Origin: Parahoeflea halophila
GTDB lineage: Bacteria; Pseudomonadota; Alphaproteobacteria; Rhizobiales; Rhizobiaceae
Direction: 5' to 3'
Assembly (NCBI RefSeq): GCF_900220985.1
Contig: NZ_OCPC01000002.1
Coordinates: forward strand, 1 to 64,000
DNA length: 64,000 nucleotides
Of the stretch, positions 59,627 through 60,639 are shown piece after piece (position 1 is the first letter of the stretch; each line of letters starts with the position of its first letter). A program made the translations under genes and the position numbers. The notes under the pieces are model-generated. The model was not told the origin of the DNA, did no database searches, and saw only the letters and a list, made by a program, of their open reading frames with translations.

Positions 59627-59923
59627 ATGTCACGCAGCTGTGAATTGACCGGCAAGGCTGTACAGTCCGGAAACAATGTCAGCCACGCCAACAACCGGAC
59701 CCGTCGCCGGTTTCTGCCGAACCTGTGCAACGTCACGCTGATTTCCGATGCTCTCGGCCAGCGCTACCGTCTGCGCATCTCGGCAAACGCTCTGCGCACT
59801 GTCGAGCATCGCGGCGGCCTTGATGCGTTCCTTGCCAAGGCCAAGGACAGCGAATTGTCGATGCGCGCGCGTCTGCTCAAGCGTCAGATCGCAAAGAAGA
59901 TCGAAGAAAAAGCTGCTGCCTGA
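59627..59923 (+). CDS. rpmB: 50S ribosomal protein L28
   Basis: A 98-residue ribosomal protein. [23 protein letters not shown] and RFLPNL are the L28 signatures. The C-terminal extension (about 75-98, with [13 protein letters not shown]) is usual in Alphaproteobacteria. There is no CxxC zinc pair (only one Cys near the start), so this is the zinc-independent type. It has its own promoter and terminator. Confidence 0.97.
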
Positions 59924-59950
59924 TAAGGGCTGACGGTTTACCGTATATGA

Positions 59951-59980
59951 GGCGGGCCATGGCCCGCCTTCATCTTTTTC
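59951..59980 (+). terminator. Rho-independent terminator of rpmB
   Basis: A 7-bp GC stem GGCGGGC / GCCCGCC (59951-59957 with 59962-59968), CATG loop, then a T-rich run to 59980. It ends just before the riboswitch-like element of the next gene. Confidence 0.75.
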
Positions 59981-59982
59981 AA

Positions 59983-60013
59983 CTGGTGGCATCAACCCAG
60001 GATAAAAAAATGC
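59983..60013 (+). promoter_or_regulatory. Probable preQ1 class I riboswitch controlling the VUT transporter gene
   Basis: P1 is CTGG (59983-59986) paired with CCAG (59997-60000), enclosing the 10-base loop TGGCATCAAC (59987-59996). An A-rich stretch (60004-60010) follows, and P2 forms between GCAT in the loop (59989-59992) and ATGC (60010-60013), giving the H-type pseudoknot of preQ1-I aptamers. From memory, the loop matches the Thermoanaerobacter tengcongensis aptamer (UCGCAGUAAC) at 7 of 10 positions, including the AAC whose C pairs with preQ1. P2 contains the whole ATG start codon, and the Shine-Dalgarno AGGA (59999-60002) begins inside P1, so ligand binding should block translation. The downstream gene is a queuosine-precursor transporter, which fits. 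Confidence 0.75.
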
Positions 60014-60639
60014 GCATGATCCCTTCCGTATATCCATTCATGGCCCTGATGGCCGCTGTCGTCATCGCCTCGAACTATCTGGTTCAGTTCCCGGTCGATT
60101 ACGTCATCGGTGCCTTGAACCTTGCCGATCTTTTGACCTGGGGCGCCTTCACCTATCCGGTGGCATTCCTCGTCACCGATCTTGCCAACCGCCGCTTCGG
60201 CCCGGCAACGGCGCGTCTGGTGGTTTTTTCAGGCTTTGTCATCGCCGTCGCTCTGTCGATCTGGCTCGCCACACCGCGTATCGCGGTGGCCTCCGGCTCC
60301 GCCTTCCTGCTGGCGCAACTGCTTGACGTGTCGATCTTCGACCGGCTGCGCAACCGCGTCTGGTGGCTGCCGCCGTTAGCCTCTACCATCATCGGTTCCA
60401 GCCTCGACACCCTGATCTTCTTTGGTCTCGCCTTCTCGCAGGCAGCCAACATCATCGGCCCCGGCGATGGTTTCGCCAGCGAAGCAGCCCCTCTGCTGGG
60501 CCTGTTCGCCACCGAGGCGCCACGCTGGCTTTCCTGGGCGCTTGGAGACCTCGCGGTCAAGCTCGTCGTCGGACTGTCGATGCTGCTGCCCTACGGCGCC
60601 CTGATACCGGTTCTGGCACCCCACCAGTCCCGCGTCTGA
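60010..60639 (+). CDS. VUT family queuosine precursor transporter (YhhQ/DUF165)
   Basis: A 209-residue inner-membrane protein with about six helices, of the family that in E. coli (YhhQ) takes up the deazaguanine precursors preQ0 and preQ1. Family features are the early SNYLVQFPVD, the FPVAFLVTDLANRRFGP-like segment (here TYPVAFLVTDLANRRFG, about 41-57), and the SGSAFLLAQLLDVSIFDRLR stretch split over 90-110. AGGA lies seven bases before the first ATG (60010); a second ATG follows two codons later. The leader holds the preQ1 element. Confidence 0.93.
   Translation: MRMIPSVYPFMALMAAVVIASNYLVQFPVDYVIGALNLADLLTWGAFTYPVAFLVTDLANRRFGPATARLVVFSGFVIAVALSIWLATPRIAVASGSAFLLAQLLDVSIFDRLRNRVWWLPPLASTIIGSSLDTLIFFGLAFSQAANIIGPGDGFASEAAPLLGLFATEAPRWLSWALGDLAVKLVVGLSMLLPYGALIPVLAPHQSRV

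Follow-up and report, generated by a model that had tools for sequence, protein, structure and literature searches.

A conserved preQ1-I-like leader element that appears to capture the start codon of a VUT/YhhQ transporter gene in the family of Hoeflea and Rhizobium

Accounts of translational riboswitches usually invoke the hiding of a Shine–Dalgarno sequence. The leader of a VUT/YhhQ queuosine-precursor transporter gene in the window (the whole 64 kb stretch of DNA analysed here) raises the question of whether the start codon itself can be the captured strand. A 31-base candidate element at positions 59983–60013, between rpmB and the VUT/YhhQ gene, reads CTGG-TGGCATCAAC-CCAG-GATAAAAAA-ATGC. 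An earlier note on this DNA had described it as a preQ1-I-type H-pseudoknot with a CTGG/CCAG stem, a ten-base loop ending in AAC, an A-rich tract and GCAT/ATGC complementarity between loop and tail, and had placed the beginning of the ribosome site AGGA inside P1 and the complete ATG in the pseudoknot strand. All of these parts are present in the letters, at the positions collected in Table 1, and the pseudoknot reading is supported by the geometry together with the covariation in relatives presented below. The layout of an H-type pseudoknot (a short P1, a P2 formed between loop and tail and an A-rich L3) is thereby suggested by the geometry, by the covariation in P2 and by one compensated difference in P1.

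Table 1 Features of the element and its surroundings (window coordinates)
Feature	Position	Strand	Basis or remark
rpmB (ribosomal protein L28), upstream neighbour	59627..59923	+	NCBIfam TIGR00009, 85.5 bits
Terminator-like hairpin and T-rich tail, between rpmB and element	59949..59980	+	Pattern scan
P1 5' strand, CUGG	59983..59986	+	Sequence; compensated G-C to A-U difference in locus L191
Loop UGGCAUCAAC, ten bases, ending in AAC	59987..59996	+	Last C is the proposed ligand-specificity base
P2 5' strand, GCAU (proposed anti-start-codon)	59989..59992	+	Covariation with the base after ATG
P1 3' strand, CCAG	59997..60000	+	Sequence; L191 difference
Shine–Dalgarno-like AGGA, half inside P1, 7 nt before ATG	59999..60002	+	Sequence
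A-rich L3 tract, seven A, the last being the A of ATG	60004..60010	+	Sequence
P2 3' strand, AUGC (start codon and first base of codon 2)	60010..60013	+	Covariation
VUT/YhhQ queuosine-precursor transporter, proposed regulated gene	60010..60639	+	NCBIfam TIGR00697

The open reading frame that begins within the element encodes a VUT protein (101.2 bits to TIGR00697, with a cut-off of 50.95), which bears out the transporter named as the target in the earlier note and places the element ahead of a queuosine-precursor transport gene, as is expected of preQ1-I switches, which stand before genes of queuosine biosynthesis or precursor transport. The closest named relatives of this gene are Hoeflea records (L031–L033). 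A second in-frame ATG occurs at codon 3 (60010–60018, ATGCGCATG); we take the first ATG as the start because a codon-3 ATG is present in only 11 of the 187 distinct sequence contexts described below. In all of the 125 element-bearing loci whose length allowed the test (not deduplicated), an L28 match on the same strand ends 30–199 nt upstream. The terminator-like hairpin downstream of rpmB stops a few bases short of P1, and the transporter would therefore need either read-through from rpmB or a promoter missed by the sigma-70 scan. Elsewhere in the family, in Chelativorans sp. ZYF759, an FMN riboswitch (RF00050, 109.6 bits; L085 3733–3879, minus strand) lies about 1.2 kb downstream of the element.

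A geometry scan of both strands of the window (4 bp stem, 9–11-base loop and 4 bp pairing between loop and ATGN) returned one site on the + strand, namely the element, and three on the − strand; 20 mononucleotide shuffles averaged 0.15 sites per strand and never exceeded 1. The 31-mer has an ordinary folding energy (z −0.56), and the minimum-energy fold of the 121 nt leader differs from the P1 hairpin. Geometry alone is weak evidence, and conservation and covariation in relatives decide.

The Rfam preQ1 models, which the earlier note had named as a check, left the element unscored. Scans of the window region gave sub-threshold matches only, with the rpmB terminator hairpin among them, a scan of a 46-base stretch gave zero matches, a search of the element's own genome with RF00522 returned nothing at E 10, and 12 relatives with the UUCCAT form had no Rfam match to the preQ1 family. 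This null result is a weak test, because a scan of the same type likewise failed to detect the yhhQ element of E. coli, which has been crystallised with preQ1. Conversely, weak RF00522 matches mean little, because at E 10 they occurred in 14 of 14 control genomes, archaea included. A covariance model of our own, built from 16 element variants, scored the element at 49.3 bits in its own genome, where the next match reached 14.3 bits. Over 385 genomes of the class, 200 had at least one match with an E value of 1 or lower; most of these are presumably chance matches on A-rich stretches, and none of the three best after the window, which are the ones inspected, lies ahead of a VUT gene.

The relatives were compared through 187 distinct contexts drawn from all fetched loci with a search expression that was fixed at CTRG, T..CAT, CYAG, an A run and TG but open at all other positions. 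The loop classes so obtained differ at the base that follows the ATG (+4). In the UGGCAU class, to which the window belongs, this base is C in 77 of 77 contexts, and in the UGCCAU class it is G in 23 of 23; in the UUCCAU class (n = 87) it is A in 51, C in 21, T in 15 and G in none. A search of 394 family genomes for UGGCAU elements of this shape with any base other than C at +4 found none. The two bases following +4 vary in every loop class, and a fixed second codon therefore cannot explain the pattern. In the classes with G at loop position 2, a G–C or C–G pair seems to form between the third loop base and the base that opens codon 2; in the class with U at that position this pair appears not to be made. 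In P1, one genome carries a compensated difference (CUAG/CUAG, L191), so that the search for compensatory changes in relatives proposed in the earlier note came out favourably for both helices. Across the 16 element variants the P1 and CAU/AUG pairs are invariant, and as such they speak neither for nor against the structure. On the best tree of 126 VUT proteins the loop classes change nine times; well supported branches force only two (GG), two (TC) and three (GC) gains or losses, and phylogeny-corrected sign tests are unable to reach significance because they have two independent pairs each.

Beyond the paired positions, the loop ends in C, next to the P1 3' strand, in every one of the 187 contexts; the base before this C is A in 156, C in 19 and T in 12, the window having AC. 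The first loop U was demanded by the search expression and hence offers no independent evidence of conservation. The A tract has seven A in 182 contexts, six in one and eight in four, counts that are to be read with the requirement of the expression for at least five. With these results the element of the earlier note is confirmed as real, conserved and covarying, and the case for it is stronger than first stated.

VUT was detected in 188 of 199 family genomes. Among 110 VUT loci inspected, 89 carry the element (82 distinct contexts) and 20 lack it; the expression match in the remaining locus (L058) was dropped as chance, which makes it in effect another locus without the element. The 20 element-free loci come from Roseibium, Stappia, Devosia, Cohaesibacter and others, together with one MAG labelled as belonging to the Rhizobiaceae group (L082), and the 16-variant model at E 1 found nothing in these 21 loci. 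A pattern allowing up to three mismatches matched 342 of 394 family genomes, and its reversed form matched none in any genome. All eight genomes of the window's own genus were missed because this pattern fixes a nine-base loop: ten-base loops occur in the window and in two other inspected genomes of its genus, as well as in one genome of another genus (G002). Two further genomes missed by the pattern (G102 and G174) have a longer linker, and inspection from the 52 unmatched genomes also identified four with VUT and an element-free upstream region (L199–L202). In an order-wide sample of 199 genomes, matches occurred in six of seven family members and in one of the 192 others, the latter probably by chance. 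As far as sampled, the element is a family trait common to most of the family, and its named carriers include Hoeflea, Rhizobium, Agrobacterium, Neorhizobium, Martelella, Mesorhizobium and Nitratireductor.

The assignment to the preQ1-I class made in the earlier note held, and it can be refined: the design is family-wide, it includes a pairing to the first base of codon 2, and the closest relative found is preQ1-I type III, as represented by E. coli yhhQ. Type III was reportedly defined by McCown and co-workers in 2014. Its E. coli K-12 representative, the yhhQ leader, reads TTGGG TTCCCTCAC CCCAA TGGTTAATCAAAAAGG TACAATATG, with the loop UUCCCUCAC, and serves the same target gene family (YhhQ/VUT) as here. 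The comparison is a residue-by-residue one with this single sequence; the 16-variant covariance model gave no significant link, the E. coli leader scoring 5.5 bits (E 1.6) and ranking fourth in 8 kb behind chance hits. The two share AC before the P1 3' strand, an A-rich L3 and a pseudoknot strand directly after the A run. The 9 nt loop of E. coli and the commonest UUCCAU loop (UUCCAUCAC) are one base apart (C10 to A), and the tails, AAGG in E. coli and AAUG here, differ by G29 to U. In the E. coli structure (an engineered 30-mer), as described in PMC10622847, P2 consists of U11–A28, C10–G29 and C9–G30, the specificity base is C14, A26 and A27 make contacts, C8 takes part in a C8–A28–U11 triple and U7 in a U7–A27–preQ1 triple. 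This difference, C10–G29 in one and A–U in the other, is compensatory at the middle P2 pair and would exchange Shine–Dalgarno capture and start-codon capture; by analogy with the C8–A28–U11 triple, we infer that the unpaired +4 base of the UUCCAU class agrees with the E. coli arrangement.

There are also differences from type III. The P2 strand is AUG here (with the codon-2 base in two loop classes) and AAGG there, and the form found in the window has UGG instead of UUC at the start of the loop, a fourth P2 pair and a 10 nt loop. The host range of type III is given as almost exclusively gammaproteobacterial (PMC10622847), whereas the present element belongs to the family of Hoeflea and Rhizobium. 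A type III tail is described as AAGG (PMC11625349); the window has AAUGC, and AAUG in 187 of 187 contexts, as the search expression demands. UU after the P1 5' strand, a second mark of type III, is replaced by UG in the window and occurs in 87 of the 187 contexts, while the third mark, AC before the P1 3' strand, is present in the window. We do not file the element as type III because the window lacks two of these marks (UU and AAGG); as far as its sequence allows it to be placed, it is most likely a start-codon-capturing variant of preQ1-I. The ten-base loop of the window, ending in AAC, presumably resembles the loop of the type II representative Tte, and AC precedes the P1 3' strand in both. 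Tte differs in that it buries two Shine–Dalgarno bases, whereas burial of the start codon is proposed here, and in that two of its four P2 steps are described as canonical (PMC11625349), as against the three or four canonical pairs proposed here. There is a further likeness to SAM-II (the metA motif), which occurs in many alphaproteobacteria (PMC1273637) and is described as an H-type pseudoknot that directly occludes the initiation region (PMC10907184); it differs in its ligand and in that the captured strand described is the ribosome-binding site and not the start codon.

The family itself appears to contain both modes of capture. AGG stands at the end of P1 in 177 contexts, in all of which the ATG of the element is in frame with VUT (reading frames were assigned from a protein motif). 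AGG is absent from ten contexts (L178–L184, L203, L214 and L222), of which genus g79 contributes seven, g102 two and g24 one, and in nine of the ten the ATG of the element is out of frame. All ten have ATGGA followed, 13–16 nt on, by an ATG or GTG in the VUT frame; ATGGA also occurs in five of 13 in-frame GCCAT contexts. These ten contexts are likely to use UGGA as the Shine–Dalgarno sequence on the same scaffold, much as E. coli uses AAGG.

We consider it highly probable that the element is a preQ1-sensing translational OFF switch built like preQ1-I, a judgement in which the identity of the ligand, ligand-dependent folding and repression are what we infer from the comparisons above. At low preQ1, the short P1 hairpin would stand alone, leaving the AUG open so that the ribosome could reach the start and the importer would be made. 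When preQ1 is plentiful, it would pair with the invariant last loop C, the A-rich tract would dock along P1 and the loop GCAU would pair with AUGC, so that the AUG and the following base would become the 3' strand of P2; the roles of the specificity C and of the A tract are taken from known structures. The A of the AUG would then sit in the ceiling of the pocket, in a position equivalent to the U11–A28 pair of E. coli, and the start codon and half of the Shine–Dalgarno sequence would be hidden together, turning the importer off. The same scaffold would capture AAGG in E. coli and apparently AUGGA, as a Shine–Dalgarno sequence, in three genera of the family. A further proposition, to which we give good though lesser credence, is that the aptamer is complete only with the initiation codon as its third strand, such that ligand binding and decoding of the start codon would be mutually exclusive and the first base of codon 2 would be dictated.

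The queuosine metabolism of the host bears on the choice of ligand. The window's genome (99.99% complete) encodes TGT (518.1 bits) and QueA (400.1 bits), with tgt and queA adjacent (G000:C13:338706–340897), and the whole genome has no match to QueF. QueC gave three matches near 20 bits, two below the cut-off of 22 and one above it (22.2 bits, neighbours in frame), which was rejected as an N-acetyl sugar amidotransferase (TIGR03573, 321.6 bits). From its gene content the host looks like a preQ1 salvager, which could use preQ1 and should not make it: with TGT and QueA present, no match to QueF and no convincing QueC, imported preQ1 should be needed, and an importer under preQ1 feedback is to be expected of such salvage. 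Control of YhhQ genes by preQ1 riboswitches has been reported for a range of bacteria (PMC5372724). It is improbable, in our estimate, that the same pseudoknot switch reads a different compound of the pathway, either preQ0 or queuine, with a pocket altered by the U7-to-G7 difference. The GG and GC loop classes, the window included, do carry G for the U of the E. coli U7–A27–preQ1 triple, and YhhQ is described as able to salvage preQ0 as well as preQ1 (PMC10622847). However, the parts of preQ1-I that read preQ1 have their counterparts here in the A-rich tract and in the invariant C that ends the loop. With no QueF match, preQ0 could contribute little to queuosine, and import of queuine only is less likely because QueA is kept, an enzyme that acts after the insertion of preQ1 and is unneeded for queuine (pathway in part from PMC10622847).

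A conserved site for an RNA-binding protein or small RNA, with no metabolite involved, would account for a sequence that is nearly invariant inside the family, beyond the needs of structure alone, and for the confinement of the element to one family as far as sampled; we regard it as very improbable, since the base changes track base pairing and the element resembles a crystallised preQ1 aptamer that lies ahead of the corresponding E. coli gene. Least credible is a strong constitutive initiation region in which the AUG/loop pairing is incidental, which would fit the good initiation signals (AGGA with 7 nt spacing and an A-rich stretch) and the unremarkable folding energy, but it explains neither why the loop covaries with the +4 base, nor why the last loop C is invariant, nor why the hairpin is kept in the ten contexts that lack AGG.

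Searches of the literature for the start-codon-capture arrangement or for these taxa yielded no report of the arrangement in the papers covered; the type III study of McCown et al. 2014 (Chem Biol 21:880) may contain alphaproteobacterial sequences. The terms 'start codon' and 'AUG' are absent from the main text of a 2024 preQ1-I review, in which 'initiation codon' appears once in another context (PMC11625349), and 'AUG', 'initiation codon' and 'translation start' are absent from PMC10622847. A regulon survey describes preQ1 switches as mostly limited to Firmicutes, and names one or two proteobacterial lineages besides (PMC3766115). The family elements, where scanned, and that of E. coli are unmatched by Rfam, and more may therefore be overlooked.

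Riboswitches in mRNAs without a Shine–Dalgarno sequence are named as an open challenge in the 2024 review (PMC11625349). In the present case the aptamer seems to have been kept while the hidden target differs: it would be the start codon for most of the family but the Shine–Dalgarno sequence for E. coli and, apparently, for three of the family's genera. Such natural capture pairs make the sufficiency of start-codon capture directly testable, and the family series with its paired changes offers a natural test of start codon against Shine–Dalgarno sequence in translational control. If the proposed capture is true, the first base of the second codon of the transporter gene would be under a coding constraint set by an RNA knot.
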